Shown one piece after another: positions 5,761-31,482 of a DNA stretch of 32,152 bases; position 1 is the stretch's first letter, and each line of letters begins with the position of its first letter. The position numbers were made by a program, and so were the translations under genes. Origin of the DNA: Candidatus Saccharimonadota bacterium (lineage in GTDB: Bacteria; Patescibacteriota; Saccharimonadia; Saccharimonadales; Saccharimonadaceae); the NCBI GenBank assembly GCA_020428315.1, contig JAGQNA010000007.1:16475-48626 (forward strand). The letters are read 5' to 3'. The notes below the pieces were generated by a model, which did no database searches, was not told where the DNA came from, and worked only from the letters and a program-made list of their open reading frames with translations.

Positions 5761-5790
5761 AAACTCCTCGCACTTATGCGAGGAGTTTTT
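5761..5790 (+). terminator. Intrinsic terminator of rplS
   Basis: A perfect 12-bp stem with arms 5761-5772 and 5777-5788 (core ACTCCTCGCA against its complement), a 4-base loop CTTA, and a T-run to 5790. It separates rplS from rnhB, whose own -10 box begins 3 bases after it. Confidence 0.92.
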
Positions 5791-7080: not shown

Positions 7081-9597
7081 TCAAAGCTCCTTCAGTGCTC
7101 GACAGACATCTTCGCCATCACGTTCAATAAGCTCAACACGTGCCTCGATTTCTGTGATACCAAGCTGTATTACCCGTTTTAGTGCTGGCTGACTCTGCAA
7201 AGGTGTAAAGAACTGACGATAGTCGTCGAGCAACTGACGGCTTGCGAGACCCGATGCTGAGTAGCGTGGAAAATCGTCAAAGCTTTTGTCGCCACCAAAG
7301 ACCTCTTCGATCCATAGCCAGTTGTCTTTCATCCATTGCCATGTGCCGTTGCGGCTGTGCCGGTTACGAATTAGATAGACGAACCAACGTGAGATATCTT
7401 GGTTGCGTATTATAGTCGAGCCCTTGAGTAATGTGATTAGTCTTGTGTTGACAGTGTCCTGCTTTGAGGACGTTAAACCAGCGGCAATATCGAGCTGTAA
7501 ATCGGCAGATACGGTACTTTGATATATCTCGAGTAAGTTATCAATGACATCCGCTGCAAGCTCGTGGTGGACAACAGCACTCAGTATGGTCGCTCTCAGC
7601 TCTGGATTGATTTTGTCAATATCTTGATTGGTATAGATCTCTTTCACTATCGTCAGTACATCAGTATCTTGGCTATATATCATCAGGCTAATAATCGTAG
7701 CCCGTAGTTTGGTATCGTCTTCGGGTTCGTCAGCTTTAGTTTGCCAGCCGAGTCGTTGGTATTGACTTCTTGCTAGCCTCCCGGAAAGTCCACGCAATTT
7801 ATCCTCAGCAAGCTTATCACCTTCAACGAATTTTTTAAGTTCACCGATTGTCAGCGCAATGATATCCCAGATATGTTCGTTAGTCTCATTAGCATATGCA
7901 TTAAGTAGAGGTAGTAATTCGGCAGATTTAATAACGCCAGCACGGGCCAGCAGAGTCTGCTCGTGCAGAAGCTGTAGGCGAGTAATAACATCTAGCTGAC
8001 CGTCTTTAACTTGATCAACTAGAAGTTTTAGATGATCTGGCGTGTAATGGCTAATAAAATGGGCACTATCTGCATTATTGAAACGTAATGGTGAGCTATG
8101 TTCACGTTTAATAGTTAATTCACGCGACTCAAGCATCGCAGGCATCTCCTTGCAAGGTGAATTGAGTGGAATTGGCCAGAGCTGTTCAGAAGGCTTATGT
8201 TTACCGATGAAAAACTGATCTTGTCGTAAAGTAATCTCTCCTTGGCTGCCTGAAACTGTTAACAGTGGATAGCCAGATTGTGAAATCCAGGTATTCATAA
8301 AAACAGCTATGTCTTTACCGCTAACGGTAGATAGTTCGGTCCATAAATCGTTACCCTCAGTATTGCTGTAGGCAAATTTTGAGAAATAGTTTTTTAGGCC
8401 AGTTTGGAATGCATCGTCACCAATATAGGCTTGCAGCATACGTAACAAGCGTGCACCTTTTGCATAGACAATCGCACCGTCAAACAAACTAGTAATTTCA
8501 TCTGGGTGGCTAACGTCAGTCTGTACTGCTTGCACCCCATATGTAGCGTCACGTCGCAAGGCTAGAATTGTTTCATGCGATGAGAAGTCGAGCCATATAT
8601 TCCATTCTGGATGCAAAGCGTCGATGGCGATGTATTCCATAAGAGTGGCAAAACTCTCATTTAGCCATAGGTCATTCCACCATTTCATTGTGACAAGGTT
8701 GCCGAACCATTGATGGCTAAGCTCATGTGCAATAACTGTTGCAATGTAGTGCTTGCTAGAGATACTGGTGGTCTGCTGGTCAGCCAGTAGGGCTACTTCA
8801 CGGTAGGTTACCAAGCCCCAGTTCTCCATCGCACCTGACGTGAAATCGGGCAGGGCAACATGGTCAGACTTTGGTAGCGGATAGGGCGTATCAAAGTATT
8901 TATCAAAAAAGTCAATAGTGCGAGTCGCGATATCAAGTGCGAAATCTAGACTATCAGATGATTGAGCGGGAGTTGCCCAGACGTTTACTTCAACACCACT
9001 TTTTGTGGTGGCAGTTTTGCGGTGTAGCTCACCAGTCACCCAGGCAAGTAAATACGTACTCATGCGTGGTGTACGCTCAAATTCTGTAGTTAACTTTCCG
9101 TTGGTTTCAGCCTGCTCCTTAATCGGCATGTTACCAAGCACAGTTACACCAGTTTCTGTCGTGAGAGTTAAGTCAAATGTCGCCTTCGCTTCGGGCTCGT
9201 CAATGCACGGGAAAGCCTCACGCGCATGATGACTTTCAAACTGAGTGGCTAGCAACTCCTTCTTGTCGCCGTCGTGTTCGTAATAGCACGGATACAGACC
9301 ATGCATGCCATCAGTAATTTTGCCTGAGAAATTTACCTCAATAGTTTGATTTTTATCCACTGGGGTACCGGCTACAATTGTTAGTTCATCTCCAGCGAGT
9401 GCGAACTCTTTCTTTTGGTTGTTGACACTCACTCCTTGTATAGCGAGGTCTTTACTATGAAGAACTACGTTGTCCTTAATTTGTTGACCCTGGATTGTAA
9501 CAGTACCTATGAATGTACGCTCAGTACGGTTAATGTCTATAGATAGGTTGTAGTGTTTTGGTTTGAAATGGTTGATTAATCTATTTGCTGTATGCAT
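7081..9597 (-). CDS. pepN: M1-family zinc aminopeptidase (PepN-like)
   Basis: An 838-residue gluzincin that removes N-terminal residues from peptides, normally in the cytoplasm. Residues 1-200 form the N-terminal beta saddle; the exopeptidase motif GAMENWG is at 255-261, the zinc site HELSHQW at 291-297 with the third ligand E314 in NESFATLMEY, followed by a long helical ERAP1-like C-terminal region (about 510-838). All catalytic residues are present and the length is normal. No signal peptide is seen. It heads a two-gene minus-strand operon with the PQ-loop protein, a pairing that suggests peptide or amino-acid salvage (inference). The ATG at 9597 lies 7 bases after a TATACT box, so the message is predicted to be leaderless; the box abuts that of the divergent nuclease gene. 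Confidence 0.95.
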   Translation of the reverse strand: MHTANRLINHFKPKHYNLSIDINRTERTFIGTVTIQGQQIKDNVVLHSKDLAIQGVSVNNQKKEFALAGDELTIVAGTPVDKNQTIEVNFSGKITDGMHGLYPCYYEHDGDKKELLATQFESHHAREAFPCIDEPEAKATFDLTLTTETGVTVLGNMPIKEQAETNGKLTTEFERTPRMSTYLLAWVTGELHRKTATTKSGVEVNVWATPAQSSDSLDFALDIATRTIDFFDKYFDTPYPLPKSDHVALPDFTSGAMENWGLVTYREVALLADQQTTSISSKHYIATVIAHELSHQWFGNLVTMKWWNDLWLNESFATLMEYIAIDALHPEWNIWLDFSSHETILALRRDATYGVQAVQTDVSHPDEITSLFDGAIVYAKGARLLRMLQAYIGDDAFQTGLKNYFSKFAYSNTEGNDLWTELSTVSGKDIAVFMNTWISQSGYPLLTVSGSQGEITLRQDQFFIGKHKPSEQLWPIPLNSPCKEMPAMLESRELTIKREHSSPLRFNNADSAHFISHYTPDHLKLLVDQVKDGQLDVITRLQLLHEQTLLARAGVIKSAELLPLLNAYANETNEHIWDIIALTIGELKKFVEGDKLAEDKLRGLSGRLARSQYQRLGWQTKADEPEDDTKLRATIISLMIYSQDTDVLTIVKEIYTNQDIDKINPELRATILSAVVHHELAADVIDNLLEIYQSTVSADLQLDIAAGLTSSKQDTVNTRLITLLKGSTIIRNQDISRWFVYLIRNRHSRNGTWQWMKDNWLWIEEVFGGDKSFDDFPRYSASGLASRQLLDDYRQFFTPLQSQPALKRVIQLGITEIEARVELIERDGEDVCRALKEL

Positions 9598-9611: not shown

Positions 9612-10283
9612 ATGAGTGGAAAGATATGGCGTAAAAGAAGACTGACCGGGGTGCTTATCTTGATAGCATTCCTGATATTTTCAATTTCACTCCACCCGAG
9701 CTTTTATCAACAAATACCAGTACAAGATACAACTGAAAGGGCTGATAGAGCTATTAAGGATCTGCATGCACTCAAAGTAAAGGGTCGAGCCCCAAAAACT
9801 GGGTACAGCCGTAAGGAGTTTGGTAATGGTTGGAAGAAGCAAGGTGATTGTGACACACGAAATATGATACTACTTCGTGATTTAAAGAAAGTAAGTGTCG
9901 ATGATAATTGTAAAGTAATGGCAGGGCAGCTAAATGACCCGTACACAGGTAAGTTGATTCTATTTAAGCGTGGCCCTGACACAAGTGATGATGTGCAGAT
10001 TGATCATGTCGTAGCATTGTCAAACGCTTGGCAGACTGGGGCGCAGCAGATGTCTTATGAACGAAGAATTGAGCTTGCTAATGATTCGCTTGAGTTATTG
10101 GCGGTTGACGGACAAGCGAACCAAGATAAATCAGATGGTGATGCCGCTACGTGGTTACCAAAAAATAAAACATTCCGGTGTCAATATGTAGCGCGACAAA
10201 TTCAAGTAAAAACAAAGTATGCGTTGTGGCTGACAGAGCCTGAAAAAGCAGCAATGGTGCGGGTGCTTGCAGCATGCAAGTAA
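9612..10283 (+). CDS. Membrane-anchored or secreted HNH nuclease, DUF1524/GmrSD-C type
   Basis: A 223-residue protein with a basic start, one hydrophobic helix (about 11-27) and an extracytoplasmic DUF1524 domain. Conserved family blocks in order: GYSRKEFGNGW (64-74), CDTRNMILLRDL (80-91), NDPYTGKLI (108-116), the active-site VQIDHVVALSNAW with D131-H132, ANDSLELLAVDGQANQDKSDGDAATWLP (156-183) and YVARQIQVKTKYALWLT. Four cysteines (C80, C100, C190, C222) could pair as disulfides, which fits export. Such nucleases are common in Actinobacteria as secreted enzymes. I chose ATG 9612 over the upstream TTG 9585 because the TATACT box lies in between and the helix is then at a normal distance. In a small-genome cell it may degrade external DNA for nucleotides (inference). 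Confidence 0.85.
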   Translation: MSGKIWRKRRLTGVLILIAFLIFSISLHPSFYQQIPVQDTTERADRAIKDLHALKVKGRAPKTGYSRKEFGNGWKKQGDCDTRNMILLRDLKKVSVDDNCKVMAGQLNDPYTGKLILFKRGPDTSDDVQIDHVVALSNAWQTGAQQMSYERRIELANDSLELLAVDGQANQDKSDGDAATWLPKNKTFRCQYVARQIQVKTKYALWLTEPEKAAMVRVLAACK

Positions 10284-12564: not shown

Positions 12565-12615
12565 TACACCTAGATCAAGGTGACCAAAAGAGGTGTCATA
12601 GGGAGTAGAGCTTGC

Positions 12616-14859
12616 ATGTATAAACATCCATCTAAACAAAACACATATGGCATAGCAAAACTAAGCATAACAAAGCTAGTCATGGCCTTGTTACTAATAC
12701 TAACTACCCTAACCTCCACCATCCTTCAAACCACCCGTACCTATGCCGCCCCCCAGCCTACAGATGTGCCACAATATAGTTTTAGCATTGGAGATATTCG
12801 AGGTAAGTTTACGGATTCATTCCTTACCATCGCCACCGACCAATCTGGTAATGTCTATGTCGCAGATAAAGGCAGTGGACGTATTCAGAAGTTCAATGGT
12901 AGCGGAACCTACCTTACGGAATGGGGTGGCTATGCTATGTTTGGCGAGGAAGATGGCAAGTTTAGTGGTTCGATTTATGGCATCACCACCGACCAAGCCG
13001 GAAATGTCTACGTTGTTGACACTTCCAGCAATCGTATCCAAAAATTCGACAGTAACGGTATTTTTCTGACTAAATGGGGTAGTATGGGCTCGGGCGACGG
13101 CCAGTTCTATGATCCGTACGGAATCGCCACCGACCAATCTGGTAACGTCTATGTGTCGGACAAGAGCAATACCCGTATCCAAAAATTCGACAGTAACGGT
13201 ATTTTTCTGACTAAATGGGGTAGTTCGGGATCAGGTGATGGTGAGTTTAGTACTCCACAGGCAGTCGCCATCGATCAATCTGGCAATGTCTATGTCATCG
13301 ACCAAAGCAACAACCGCATCCAAAAGTTCGATAGTAACGGTAACTTCCTAGCCAAATGGGGTAGTAGCGGTTCAGGCGACGGCCAGTTCGATGATCCTTA
13401 TGGCATCGCCACCGACCAATCAGGCAACGTCTATGTTGCTGATGCTCGTAACAACCGTGTTCAGAAGTTCGACAGCAACGGCAACTTCCTAGCTAAATGG
13501 GGCGGTAGTGGCTCGGGCAATGGCCAGTTCGACTATTCTCCTGGTATTGCTATAGACCAATCTGGCAATGTCTATGTAACAGATGATGGTAATACCCGTG
13601 TTCAGAAGTTCGACAGCAACGGCAACTTCCTAGCTAAGTGGGGGGGAGTAATGTATGGCTTGGGGGCTGGTGAGTTTTACATGCCCTTCGGTACTGCTGC
13701 GGACCGATCTGGCAATTTTTATGTAACTGACCAGTACCACCACCGCATCCAAAAGTTCACTGCCAATGGCACCTACTTAGCCCAGTGGGGTAGCCAGGGT
13801 ACGGGTAATGGACAGTTCGATAGCCCTGTAGGTATTACTACAGACAAATCCGGCAATATCTATGTCACCGAACAGGGCAACAACCGTATTCAGAAGTTTA
13901 CCGCCAATGGTGCCTACATATCTCAATGGGGTAGTAGTGGCATCGGTGAGGGTGAGTTTCAGTACGCAACGGACATCACCACCGACCAATCTGGCAATGT
14001 CTATGTCGCCGATACTTTCAATAACCGTATCCAAAAGTTTTCTGCTAATGGCACCTACTTAGCCCAGTGGGGTAGCCAGGGTACGGGTAATGGACAGTTC
14101 GATACGCCCGCAGGCCTCGCCACTGACCAATTCGGCAATATCTATGTTGCAGACGCTGAAAATAACCGTATCCAAAAGTTCAACAGCAACGGCACCTACT
14201 TAGCTCAGTGGGGTAGCGTAGGAGCTAGTCATGGCAAATTCAACATGCCAGTTGGTATTACAGTTAGTGCAGACGGTACTATATATGTCAGTGAGTATAT
14301 GGGAAACCGCATCCAAGCCTTCAAATACCCCTCCGACCCAACACCTCCGGTTTCTTCAACTCCATCTACTACCGACCTCAACGGTGACAGCATTCCCGAC
14401 ACCACCCAGCCACATGTGGCTGGTATGGTAGCCAGCACCGTCACCGGCAAGAGCGTAGCTCTAGAACTAAGTCCTAGCTGCAATCTCACAAACTTTAACA
14501 TCACTAACCAAAACCAACTAGCCACCAAAGACCCAGCCTACAAATACACTGATGGCCTATGGGACTTTGAAGCTAACTGTGGCACACCTGGCTACACTAC
14601 AACAGTCAAGCTTTACTACTACGACGTAACACCAGACAACAAGCTACTACGTAAATACAACCCTAACACCAATGCCTTCTTTAACATTACTAACTCTAGT
14701 ATCACTACCCAAACCATAAACAACCGTAACGTAACTGTCGTAACCTACCAAATCACTGACGGTGGCCCACTAGACACAGACAACCAAGTCAACGGCACCA
14801 TAGTAGACCCAGCCGGCCTAGCAACCGCCAAGATAGGGGTGCCGAGTACGGGGTTGTAG
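12616..14859 (+). CDS. Secreted NHL-repeat beta-propeller protein with a choice-of-anchor-U-like C-terminal domain
   Basis: A 747-residue exported protein. A signal peptide of about 43 residues has a basic start, a hydrophobic core (LVMALLLILTTLTSTIL) and a TYA-A cleavage site. Eleven NHL repeats of 47 residues follow (about 50-570), each with GQF, GIATDQSGNVYVAD, NNRIQKF, SNGTYLAKWGS; such repeats fold as beta-propellers that bind proteins, glycans or RNA. A Pro/Thr linker precedes a last domain (about 590-747) starting DLNGDSIPDTTQ, with two cysteines, DGLWDFEANCGTPG and TDGGPLDTDNQVNGTIVDP; this matches the choice-of-anchor U pattern found before cell-surface sorting tails. The protein ends exactly at VPSTGL, like an LPxTG-type motif without the usual membrane helix. 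I prefer ATG 12616 to GTG 12580, which lies only about 9 bases after the predicted transcription start. Confidence 0.85.
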   Translation: MYKHPSKQNTYGIAKLSITKLVMALLLILTTLTSTILQTTRTYAAPQPTDVPQYSFSIGDIRGKFTDSFLTIATDQSGNVYVADKGSGRIQKFNGSGTYLTEWGGYAMFGEEDGKFSGSIYGITTDQAGNVYVVDTSSNRIQKFDSNGIFLTKWGSMGSGDGQFYDPYGIATDQSGNVYVSDKSNTRIQKFDSNGIFLTKWGSSGSGDGEFSTPQAVAIDQSGNVYVIDQSNNRIQKFDSNGNFLAKWGSSGSGDGQFDDPYGIATDQSGNVYVADARNNRVQKFDSNGNFLAKWGGSGSGNGQFDYSPGIAIDQSGNVYVTDDGNTRVQKFDSNGNFLAKWGGVMYGLGAGEFYMPFGTAADRSGNFYVTDQYHHRIQKFTANGTYLAQWGSQGTGNGQFDSPVGITTDKSGNIYVTEQGNNRIQKFTANGAYISQWGSSGIGEGEFQYATDITTDQSGNVYVADTFNNRIQKFSANGTYLAQWGSQGTGNGQFDTPAGLATDQFGNIYVADAENNRIQKFNSNGTYLAQWGSVGASHGKFNMPVGITVSADGTIYVSEYMGNRIQAFKYPSDPTPPVSSTPSTTDLNGDSIPDTTQPHVAGMVASTVTGKSVALELSPSCNLTNFNITNQNQLATKDPAYKYTDGLWDFEANCGTPGYTTTVKLYYYDVTPDNKLLRKYNPNTNAFFNITNSSITTQTINNRNVTVVTYQITDGGPLDTDNQVNGTIVDPAGLATAKIGVPSTGL
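12783..14335 (+). repeat. 141-bp tandem coding repeats (11 NHL units)
   Basis: The NHL units repeat at 141 bp in the DNA as well as the protein. Some blocks are identical: 51 bases at 13033-13083 and 13174-13224 (one period apart), and 58 bases at 13765-13822 and 14047-14104 (two periods apart). Such identity points to recent duplication or gene conversion, so copy number may vary between strains or collapse in assembly. Confidence 0.85.
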
Positions 14860-15004: not shown

Positions 15005-15026
15005 AAGAGAGTAGCTATTTATGCAC

Positions 15027-15052
15027 AATCCGGCCGGCAGGTCGGATTTTTT
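15027..15052 (+). terminator. Terminator-like hairpin inside the nusA leader (attenuator candidate)
   Basis: AATCCGGCC (15027-15035), loop GGCA, GGTCGGATT (15040-15048) forms a 9-bp stem with one G-U pair and runs into six Ts (15047-15052). It lies about 16 bases after the predicted transcription start and 20 bases before the nusA start codon, so it would terminate transcripts from the nusA promoter itself. Confidence 0.7.
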
Positions 15053-15071
15053 CATAAAAAGAAAGGAAACT

Positions 15072-16202
15072 ATGGAAGAGATAAATTTAAAACAATTAAC
15101 GCTAGCGATGAGGACTATTGCTGAAGAAAAAAATCTACCCGAGGATACAGTTCTGTCAATAATCGAGCAGGCTGTAGCAGCTGCTTGGCGACGTGATAAT
15201 GGTGAGCGCGATCAGGAAGTAAGGGCAGAATTAAATATCAACGACGGAACCGCCAAGGTATTTGTTGGTCATGAAGTGGTTGAAGAAGTGGGGAGTCCAG
15301 CTCATGAGATTAGTTTGGTTGATGCACAAAAAGTAAAATCAGATGCTCAACTTGGCGACCTAGTTGAAGAAGAGCACATCGTAACCGGTTTTGGCCGTGT
15401 TGCAGCTCAAACAGCTAAACAAGTTGTTTTACAGCGGTTACGAGAAGCAGAGCGCGAGGTCGTATTGGCTGAGTATGAAGATAAGATCGGGACTATCGTA
15501 ACCGGCACTGTTCAGCGAGTTGAACCGCGAGTAGTTCGGGTTGAGCTTGGCAAAGCGGTTGGAATTATTCCTCAGAGTGAGCAGATCCAGGGCGAGTTCT
15601 ATAGCATTGGTAGCCGTATAAAGGTGTTCATAAAAGATATTGAGCGTGACAATCGTGGACCGCAGTTAATTCTCAGTCGTGGAAATGAAGCATTTGTCGA
15701 ATGTCTATTTCAGCAAGAAGTTCCTGAGCTCGAATCAGGTGCAGTTGAAATTAAGGCAATTGCACGTGAGGCAGGTCGTCGTACAAAAATTGCTGTTCAT
15801 TCGTCGGTTCCTGGTGTCGATCCTGTTGGGACATTTGTTGGCGGCAGAGGAACACGTGTACAAGCAGTAATGAACGAAATTGGTGACCAAGAGAAAATTG
15901 ATATTATTACTTTTAGTGACGAAATTGAGGTCTTTATTCGTGAATCACTGAGTCCAGCAGAGATTGCCAAGGTAGAGATTAACAAAGAAGATAAATCAGC
16001 CAAGGTGTATGTAAATGAGGATCAGCAGTCAATCGCGATTGGACGAGGTGGTCAAAACGTACGACTAGCTAGTCGACTTACTGGATACGAGCTTGATATT
16101 GAGGCAGTATCTGAAAGTATTGTTAAACCAAAGTCTAAACCAAAGAAGAATATAGAGGAAGGACTGTTTGAAGCAATCGAAAGTAGTGAGACAGAGGAAT
16201 AA
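15072..16202 (+). CDS. nusA: Transcription termination/antitermination factor NusA
   Basis: A 376-residue RNA polymerase-binding factor that modulates pausing, intrinsic termination and antitermination. Order of domains: NusA N-terminal domain (1-120, with the helix EEKNLPEDTVLSIIEQAVAAA), S1 domain (about 125-195, GTIVTGTVQRVEP to LILSR), and two KH domains (about 200-350) with GRGTRVQAV and the second GRGGQNVRLASRLTGYELDI loop. The C terminus is a short K/E-rich tail with no acidic repeats, the usual compact form. The start is ATG 15072 with an AAAGGAAA ribosome-binding site 5 bases upstream; an open frame from 15021 runs through the leader hairpin and is not the start. The usual rimP upstream and infB downstream are absent: NHL and clpC genes flank it. 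Confidence 0.95.
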   Translation: MEEINLKQLTLAMRTIAEEKNLPEDTVLSIIEQAVAAAWRRDNGERDQEVRAELNINDGTAKVFVGHEVVEEVGSPAHEISLVDAQKVKSDAQLGDLVEEEHIVTGFGRVAAQTAKQVVLQRLREAEREVVLAEYEDKIGTIVTGTVQRVEPRVVRVELGKAVGIIPQSEQIQGEFYSIGSRIKVFIKDIERDNRGPQLILSRGNEAFVECLFQQEVPELESGAVEIKAIAREAGRRTKIAVHSSVPGVDPVGTFVGGRGTRVQAVMNEIGDQEKIDIITFSDEIEVFIRESLSPAEIAKVEINKEDKSAKVYVNEDQQSIAIGRGGQNVRLASRLTGYELDIEAVSESIVKPKSKPKKNIEEGLFEAIESSETEE

Positions 16203-16221: not shown

Positions 16222-16248
16222 TTAGCACTCGCTTGACCTGAGTGCTAA
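16222..16248. promoter_or_regulatory. CIRCE operator (HrcA binding site) of clpC
   Basis: TTAGCACTC (16222-16230), a 9-base spacer and GAGTGCTAA (16240-16248) match the canonical CIRCE element exactly in both arms and spacing. In other bacteria it is bound by the heat-shock repressor HrcA. The clpC -35 box lies inside the spacer. The palindrome is followed by TTTTT, so in RNA it would also form a 9-bp hairpin with a T-run behind nusA. Confidence 0.95.
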
Positions 16249-16262
16249 TTTTTGTGTACAAT
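16233..16262 (+). promoter_or_regulatory. clpC promoter embedded in CIRCE
   Basis: TTGACC (16233-16238), an 18-base spacer and TACAAT (16257-16262) form a good sigma70 promoter whose -35 sits between the CIRCE arms. A bound repressor would block polymerase directly. The start is expected near 16269. Confidence 0.8.
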
Positions 16263-16267
16263 AGAGT

Positions 16268-16287
16268 AAGCACAATCACAAGTGCTT
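16268..16287. repeat. Second inverted repeat in the clpC leader
   Basis: AAGCAC (16268-16273) and GTGCTT (16282-16287) flank an 8-base loop at the predicted transcription start. The arms share the core AGCAC with CIRCE half-sites, but length and spacing differ. It may be a degenerate second operator or a 5' mRNA hairpin. Confidence 0.4.
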
Positions 16288-16320
16288 GCACGCTATCAAG
16301 GAGAGGAGCATAATAAGCAT

Positions 16321-18789
16321 ATGGCAGACGAATTCGCAGAATTTGTTTCACGTCTCACCGACAACGCTAAGACGAGCTTGCAACAAGCAAACGCCATAGC
16401 ACGAGGCTACGGCAGTTCGTATATAGGTACCGAACATTTGTTGCTTGGAGTATTGGCTCAGGGTACTTCAGTTGGTGCCAAGCTTCTAGCTGATGCACAT
16501 ATTACACTGGACAGGGCTGAAATGGCATTAAATCTGTCTCCTCGAAATATTACAACCAGCGTTGGTGCTACCTCTCTGAGCGAAACAGCTAAGCTGACTT
16601 TAAAAATGGCATGGGATATGGCTCAAGAGTACCATCAGGATTTTCTAGGCACCGAACATATACTATATAGCTTGATTAACCAAAAAAATGCTCGGGCAAC
16701 TGTTCTACTGAAAGACCTTGGGGTTGATATAGATAGCTTCAAGGCTGACTTAGAAGAGTTTTTGGAAAGACAGCAGAATACTGAACAGACCGAAACGACT
16801 ACTAAGCCGCGGCGTGCACGTGGCGGAGCTTTGGAAGTGTTTGGAACTGACTTGACCGCTCAGGCAAGGTCTGCCAGTCTGGACAAGGTGATTGGCCGAG
16901 ACAAAGAGCTGGAGCGAATGATCACTATTTTGATGCGTCGAGCGAAAAACAATCCCGTGCTGATCGGTGAACCAGGAGTTGGAAAGACAGCAATTGCCGA
17001 AGGGCTTGCCCACAAAATTGCCTCAGAGGATGTGCCAGAGTATCTACTTGATAAAAGGGTTATTCAGCTTGACCTTGCAGGTATGATTGCTGGAACGAAA
17101 TACCGTGGTGAATTTGAAGAACGGTTAAAAAAAGTACTTGACGAAGTCCAGAGTCAAAAAAATATAATCTTATTTATTGATGAATTACACTTGTTAGTCG
17201 GTGCTGGTGCTGCTGAGGGTGCACTTGATGCCGCAAATATTCTTAAGCCAGCACTGGCTCGGGGCCATTTGCATCTCATTGGTGCAACTACCTTGGATGA
17301 GTATCGTAAATATATCGAAAAGGATAGCGCACTTGAAAGGAGGTTCCAGACAATAATCGTAAAAGAACCAAGCCTGAAGGATACGCTCGCTATACTAAAA
17401 GGGTTACGTCCCTACTACGAAAAGCACCATAACGTCACATTAAACGACGAGGTTTTACAGGATGCAGTGTATATGGCTGACCGCTATCTTAGCGAGAGAT
17501 TTATGCCAGATAAAGCCATAGATGTTGTTGATGAAGCCTCAGCGAAACGCCGTGCCATGCTTGGTAAGCAGCCATCAAAAATACGTGATTACAAAAAACA
17601 GGTATCCAGTCTCGATGACAAAATGGAAGAAGCTGTAGCTGCCGAGGATTATGAGCGGGCAGCTCTGTATAAGACTCGGCTTGTCCAGCTTCAAGAAGCC
17701 TTGAACTTAATGCTTGAAAAAAATGATAAAAAGCAAGTAATAGAGATTAGAGGCAATGATATTGCACAAGCAATTTCTATGATGACTGGAATTCCAGCAA
17801 GCAAAATCAAACGGTCCGAGGCGTCTATATTAAAAAATCTAGAAAAACATCTTTCAAAGAGTATTATTGGGCAGCCTGAGGCGGTTGAGCAGGTAGCACG
17901 TGCAGTTCGGCGCAGTAGAAGCGGAGTTTCTAGCCAAAAACGTCCTATCGGTAGTTTTGTATTCATGGGTCCAACTGGAGTTGGGAAGACAGAGCTTGCT
18001 AGAGTTCTTGCAAAAGAGGTTTTTGGAAGTGACGATGCATTGATAAAAATAGATATGAGTGAGTTTAAGCAAGGACATAACAGTTCTAGGTTACTTGGCG
18101 CGCCTGCGGGCTATGTTGGGTATGAAGACGGCGGTCAGCTTACCGACAAGATACGTCGTCAGCCGTATAGTGTAGTACTTTTTGACGAGATCGAAAAAGC
18201 CCACCCTGATGTAATGCACATGCTTCTCCAGTTGCTTGAAGACGGGACAGTAACAGACGCAAAGGGGCACTCAGTTGATTTCAGTAATACGATTATAATA
18301 TTGACTAGCAATCTCGGTGCGGATGCGATGATGCGCGAATCGACGCTAGGCTTCCATGCAAAATCTAAATCCGATACTGAGTATTTAAGCCAGGTTCATG
18401 ACGATAATTCTGTGATTGCGAAAAAGTCACTTGGAAAACTGCTTCGCCCTGAGCTTATTAATCGATTTGATGCAATTATTACATTCCGTGCACTGACTAG
18501 ACCACAAGTTTCAAAGATTTTTGATAATCTAATACTAGAGCTAAATCAGCGACTCACTCGCAAGGGTATGAGTGTGGTGGTAAGCAAAAGTCTTAAGAGT
18601 TTCATAATCAAAAAAGGATATGATGAGAAATTTGGTGCGAGACCGCTTAGGCGCACTATTCAAGATGAGCTAGAGCATCCGGTTGCAGAAAAAATTATTA
18701 ATGGAGAGTTTGGAAAAGGAACTATTATTGATGCGGGCCTTGAAGATGGTCAGGCGATGGTAAGAGTATTGCACGAGAAAGTAGCCTAG
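16321..18789 (+). CDS. clpC: ClpC-type AAA+ unfoldase (Hsp100) of the Clp protease
   Basis: An 822-residue two-ring-domain ATPase that unfolds proteins for the ClpP peptidase. It has a double Clp N-domain (1-150), AAA1 with Walker [10 protein letters not shown] (216-224) and Walker B ILFIDELH (283-290), a central region with a UVR-like motif ([19 protein letters not shown], 435-453), and AAA2 with Walker [10 protein letters not shown] (550-558) and the arginine-finger region [11 protein letters not shown]. An LGF tripeptide after REST in the AAA2 loop matches the ClpP-docking loop (V/I/L-G-F), so it should pair with ClpP rather than act as ClpB; the middle domain is also too short for ClpB. 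Expression is under CIRCE. The GAGGAG ribosome-binding site is about 12 bases from the ATG, unusually far. The next gene starts directly after its stop. Confidence 0.95.
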
Positions 18790-30934: not shown

Positions 30935-31482
30935 TGAAGCTACGGATAATAGCTGGTAGATTAGGTGGTCGCACTATTTCCTCGGCTGGTAGATCCAGCA
31001 CTCATGCAATGAGCGAGCGAGGCCGCAACAGCTTATTCAATATTCTCGGTACAGAAATAATACAAAATGTCAAAGTTCTTGATTGTTTTGCTGGTAGTGG
31101 TGCGCTAGGGCTGGAAGCTATTAGTAGAGGTGCTGGGTCTTGTATTTTTGTTGAGAAAGACCGTGTTGCAGCAAAAATATTACAAGAAAATATCGATACA
31201 CTTGCAGTAACTGAGTGCAGAGTTGTGAGAGCGACTGTTGCATCCTGGGAGTCGACCACTAAGGACGCCAGTTTTGATATTATATTTGCGGATCCACCGT
31301 ATCACGATTTGCAGTTTTCCACAGTTAAGAAACTTTTTAGACTTCTCAAACCAGGTGGAACTATGGTATTATCGCACACAGGAAAGGGTGAGGTGCCAAT
31401 CCAAGACGGAATTGTTGTGGTGGACAATCGTAGTTATGGGAATCTTAACCTCACCTTTTTCTGTAAAGTGACAGACCTATAG
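30934..31482 (+). CDS. rsmD: 16S rRNA (guanine-966 N2)-methyltransferase RsmD
   Basis: A 182-residue S-adenosylmethionine-dependent methyltransferase acting on the small ribosomal subunit. It starts with the family opening MKLRIIAGRLGGRTI, has the SAM loop VLDCFAGSGALGLEAISRG (48-66), the acidic strand end IFVEKD (71-76) and the catalytic DPPY at 120-123. Length is normal. Its ATG overlaps the stop of the preceding gene (TAATG). The stop codon lies in the loop of a terminator hairpin that closes the recG operon. The next gene, on the other strand, ends 18 bases later once its frameshift is allowed for. Confidence 0.93.
   Translation: MKLRIIAGRLGGRTISSAGRSSTHAMSERGRNSLFNILGTEIIQNVKVLDCFAGSGALGLEAISRGAGSCIFVEKDRVAAKILQENIDTLAVTECRVVRATVASWESTTKDASFDIIFADPPYHDLQFSTVKKLFRLLKPGGTMVLSHTGKGEVPIQDGIVVVDNRSYGNLNLTFFCKVTDL

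Follow-up and report, generated by a model that had tools for sequence, protein, structure and literature searches.

The CIRCE palindrome ahead of the clpC gene in this DNA raises the question of how many functions a single short element can carry. The window (the whole stretch of 32,152 nucleotides that was analysed) contains clpC at 16321 to 18789 of the forward strand, encoding a protein of 822 amino acids in which Pfam recognises Clp_N, AAA, UVR, AAA_2 and ClpB_D2-small domains. The co-directional nusA gene (15021 to 16202, forward strand, identified with Pfam) ends 19 nt 5' of the palindrome. Directly upstream of nusA, positions 12580 to 14859 encode a 759-amino acid protein made up largely of NHL β-propeller repeats. 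The initial annotation gave the palindrome three roles, i.e. the operator of clpC, the site of its −35 box and a possible intrinsic terminator of transcripts coming from nusA. We consider it very probable that at 16222 to 16248 the operator through which HrcA controls clpC is merged with the core promoter of the gene, that bound HrcA would occlude the −35 box, and that most chaperone and Clp operons share this layout.

The forward-strand sequence at 16222 to 16248 is TTAGCACTC-GCTTGACCT-GAGTGCTAA, which matches the CIRCE inverted repeat TTAGCACTC-N9-GAGTGCTAA with 0 mismatches. The perfect 9-9-9 element is thus confirmed, and its assignment as a predicted HrcA site is based on this pattern match together with conservation. 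It is the only match with ≤3 mismatches in the whole window, and 100 shuffles gave 0. The spacer contains the predicted −35 hexamer TTGACC at 16233 to 16238, in a position common to most clpC loci of the family, and the predicted −10 hexamer TACAAT lies 18 bp further on at 16257 to 16262 (both forward strand), as found by a promoter scan and by comparison of clpC loci. The hexamers and spacing given in the initial annotation are thus confirmed. The pair scores 10/12 against a σ70-type consensus (TTGACA/TATAAT-like, 16–18 bp spacing), and its placement is conserved. It is the best promoter-like match in a 5-kb region, and the regional scan taken alone is near chance (9 found vs 7.9 expected). 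The latter result would also be expected if TTGACC fell within the spacer by chance, clpC being transcribed by read-through from nusA or from another promoter, with CIRCE, in the leader or close to it, serving as a roadblock. The wider comparisons described below bear on that reading.

The search for hrcA suggested at the outset revealed a single copy in the genome (816 kb in 69 contigs, 98% complete), with a match to PF01628 at E = 2.9e-18. The parallel search for further CIRCE sites gave eight in all with ≤3 mismatches, including that of clpC, vs one with a reversed control pattern. They precede clpB (whose ORF runs off the contig end), dnaJ, dnaK (two sites), hrcA-grpE, clpP, groESL and clpC, and so the occurrence of several CIRCE elements before chaperone operons, a feature of the HrcA/CIRCE regulon, is found in this genome. 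In the family hrcA is present in 40 of 41 genomes, and no match to CtsR was obtained in 61 genomes (0/61). Given CIRCE at the clp genes, the presence of hrcA and the lack of a CtsR match, HrcA probably regulates the Clp genes as well.

Most of the sites in this genome have a −35-like hexamer within the spacer. These are TTGCCC for clpB, TTTACA for dnaJ, TTGACA for the distal dnaK site, TTGAAA for hrcA, TTGACT for clpP and TTGACC for clpC, each located 17–18 bp 5' of a −10-like box. The groES site has TTGACG in its spacer and a weak −10, and the proximal dnaK site is without a nested −35. The predicted layout is therefore common to most of the regulon, and is not peculiar to clpC.

Some further properties of these loci may be described. 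Where dnaK has two CIRCE sites (positions 8593 to 8665 of locus L007, and dnaK loci of the family) it is the distal one that bears the −35; the proximal one is degenerate and lies directly 3' of the −10 box. All seven CIRCE operons closely follow a co-directional gene, and at dnaJ and hrcA a TAG in the left arm of CIRCE is apparently the stop codon of that preceding gene (L007, 3430 to 3432 and 10613 to 10615). The clpP mRNA is apparently almost leaderless, with an ATG approximately 6 nt past TACAAT (L008, 2837 to 2885).

We examined the placement of the −35 in related genomes. Related loci were taken from genome searches, as a search for loci based on ClpC yielded hits mainly in Verrucomicrobia/Lentisphaerae and none in close relatives. 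The orientation of each family site was taken from the ORF that follows it, irrespective of the promoter. The best promoter has its −35 within the CIRCE spacer at 53 of 67 distinct family sites vs 4.6 expected on shuffling spacers and flanks, and at 19 of 27 sites elsewhere in the class vs 2.5 expected, although the genomes are related, so that the counts are not independent trials and the numbers expected from shuffling cannot be read as p-values. TTGAC occurs in the spacers of the family sites 40 times in the sense orientation vs 2 antisense, and in the remainder of the class 17 times sense and 0 antisense. The phase of the −35 is specific to the gene, being mostly at spacer position 1 for dnaK and dnaJ, 3 for clpC and 5 for groES. 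In six genera the groES site has the right arm AAGTGCTAA in place of GAGTGCTAA, and the altered base completes a TTGCAA −35. The strand asymmetry of TTGAC, together with position-specific conservation over many genera, makes it very unlikely that the clpC hexamer is there by chance with CIRCE functioning as a roadblock.

The clpC loci themselves conform closely to this behavior. CIRCE with ≤2 mismatches is present at 30 of 30 loci (the best-scoring among 51 genomes with a ClpC match), and nearly all 30 have a spacer −35 of the TTGA or TTGC type. At several of them paired changes in the arms (CTAGCACTC/GAGTGCTAG or TTGGCACTC/GAGTGCCAA) preserve the palindrome. CIRCE was said to be less usual on clpC, but in the host lineage it is the rule. 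The assignment of CIRCE as the clpC operator is supported by the perfect site, the presence of hrcA and the clpC loci, and the class-wide comparison provides strong support for the −35 role of TTGACC. From sequence comparison, then, both of these predicted roles of the clpC CIRCE are well supported.

The palindrome could also act as RNA, since it is predicted to fold with −16.6 kcal/mol (z = −3.4); a comparison of the window with Rfam gave no match. If CIRCE were mainly a hairpin in the 5' leader it might stabilise the mRNA or mask the ribosome site. Yet the predicted transcription start is 3' of 16262, which places CIRCE outside the clpC mRNA, and the Shine-Dalgarno sequence is ~50 nt further on. 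We regard a leader function as extremely improbable.

The same fold is relevant to the third role proposed, in which the palindrome and the TTTTT run at 16249 to 16253 (forward strand) would terminate transcripts from nusA and thereby insulate clpC. The proximity of the end of nusA is consistent with this, and within 120 nt past nusA there is no better hairpin. The terminator-type score of the clpC CIRCE is 1.2, close to that of another candidate behind a gene in the window, at 31474 (4.3), but this is middling compared with the score of 20.4 for the candidate terminator at 5764. A T-run of ≥4 is commoner at clpC (18 of 30 sites vs 7 of 37 other CIRCE sites). Yet its presence in clpC loci is independent of an upstream gene that might require termination. 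Of the 20 loci where a co-directional gene ends no more than 120 nt away, 12 have such a run, and so do 6 of the 10 that lack such a gene (p = 1). Moreover, five of the seven CIRCE sites scored in this genome gave strongly negative values of −48 to −79 with no usable T-run, though they lie close behind co-directional genes. Long T-runs are also found at those groES sites whose −35 is similarly phased, fitting AT-rich promoter spacing, and the excess at clpC probably arises because its −35 phase leaves a longer gap from the right arm to the −10. On the basis of the T-run and terminator-score comparisons we think it more likely that the run at 16249 to 16253 is AT-rich promoter spacer rather than the tail of a terminator. 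The role as nusA terminator is not supported by these data, and we consider it unlikely.

Downstream of the promoter, the most likely start of clpC is the ATG at 16321, behind the Shine-Dalgarno sequence AAGGAGAGG at 16298 to 16306 (forward strand), which aligns among clpC leaders. A start at GTG 16282 was rejected, as the conserved Shine-Dalgarno sequence fits with ATG 16321. Shortly 5' of the Shine-Dalgarno sequence lies the motif GCTTGCAC (16284 to 16291, forward strand), corresponding to a consensus GCTTGCGC that is strongly conserved in clpC leaders of the family (GGAGG-N4-ATAAT; relatives' loci L120 to L143). Within the family, matches to this pattern are almost exclusively at clpC. Comparison of 22 clpC leaders for conserved RNA structure gave no consensus pairs.

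The repressor itself is unusual in length. HrcA of this genome has about 234 amino acids, vs about 340 for the full-length protein (1STZ). Full length is no accepted criterion for the regulon, so this leaves the assignment of CIRCE as operator unchanged. The protein aligns by sequence to the winged helix of 1STZ, and its model (pLDDT 80) matches that fold over its length with E 1.6e-12 and a TM score of 0.72 of the query. In comparison with clostridial HrcA ~100 central residues are missing, and the same is true of 28 relatives with 228–246 amino acids, i.e. family-wide. The missing center presumably comprises part of the GAF-like domain and the inserted dimerisation domain. The gene is at 9868 to 10569 of L007 on the reverse strand, and here and in the relatives (L207 to L235) the winged helix and a C-terminal part are retained. 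HrcA-like proteins of other phylum members, where they could be read whole, have about 229–256 amino acids. The short form may have a DNA-binding mode that differs from canonical HrcA.

Outside the host class the element is placed differently. In other families of the phylum (28 oriented sites) the commonest recognisable layout has CIRCE directly 3' of the −10, with 11 found vs 4.0 expected; a spacer −35 occurs in 4 of the 28, all from one family. None of 11 clostridial sites was classed as having a spacer −35, and one clpB-like site overlaps TTGACA. Some other lineages have TATAAT-like CIRCE spacers. The more frequent position 3' of the −10 would fit with a chance hexamer at clpC, as discussed above. 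We think it likely that in the host class, whose members have small genomes, the spacer encodes the −35 across most of the regulon in gene-specific phase, giving a composite operator-promoter that would be read by the shortened HrcA, with CIRCE 3' of the −10 in other lineages of the phylum. If so, the operator would have moved with respect to the promoter from one lineage to another.

The recurrence of the nested layout in the genome and across the class suggests that the repressor acts by directly covering the promoter. From the sequence, its conservation, the presence of hrcA and the absence of CtsR from the matches, we infer binding, occlusion and heat control as follows. In the unstressed cell the compact HrcA would occupy CIRCE and so mask the −35 from σ70-type RNA polymerase. 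The promoter would open once HrcA is lost or inactivated, for which GroE-modulated HrcA of other organisms suggests heat or misfolded protein as the trigger, and release of the repressor would permit transcription of clpC from a predicted start at ~16268–16271, about 7 nt past 16262. Since most chaperone and Clp operons of the genome and class share the layout, HrcA probably runs the ClpC/ClpP branch, the task of CtsR in many Firmicutes. This would account for the role of the CIRCE spacer in the host lineage, and may provide a simple, testable rule whereby one repressor governs chaperones and Clp protease in a largely uncultured, regulator-poor group.

The system is thus a known switch, HrcA/CIRCE, in a regulon-wide nested variant. 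Our search of openly licensed papers found no description of this variant and no paper on the placement of CIRCE in the host group. It shares with the established HrcA/CIRCE regulon the operator, a winged-helix hrcA product and the targets groESL, dnaK, grpE, dnaJ and hrcA itself. It differs in that most operons carry the −35 within the N9 spacer, the targets include clpC and clpP, and HrcA lacks about 100 central residues. In M. gallisepticum the HrcA regulon comprises clpB, dnaK, lon and dnaJ (PMC4245973), so that there too, in a reduced genome, HrcA is placed over chaperones and an ATP-dependent protease (PMC4245973). The protease genes of the present regulon, in contrast, are clpC and clpP, and its operator encloses the −35. 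Firmicutes CtsR is likewise a negative heat-shock regulator of these protease genes, as we presume HrcA to be in the present system, but it is another repressor with another operator, and it has no match in the host family. In Campylobacter jejuni the transcription start of Pgro and of Phrc falls inside the HrcA footprint (PMC7464140). HrcA is similarly located over a compact core-promoter region there and is believed to obstruct RNA polymerase (PMC7464140), whereas the predicted contact in the present promoters is the −35 box. Related promoters with different placement of the repressor, at −35 vs +1, should be useful for relating operator position to repression strength.
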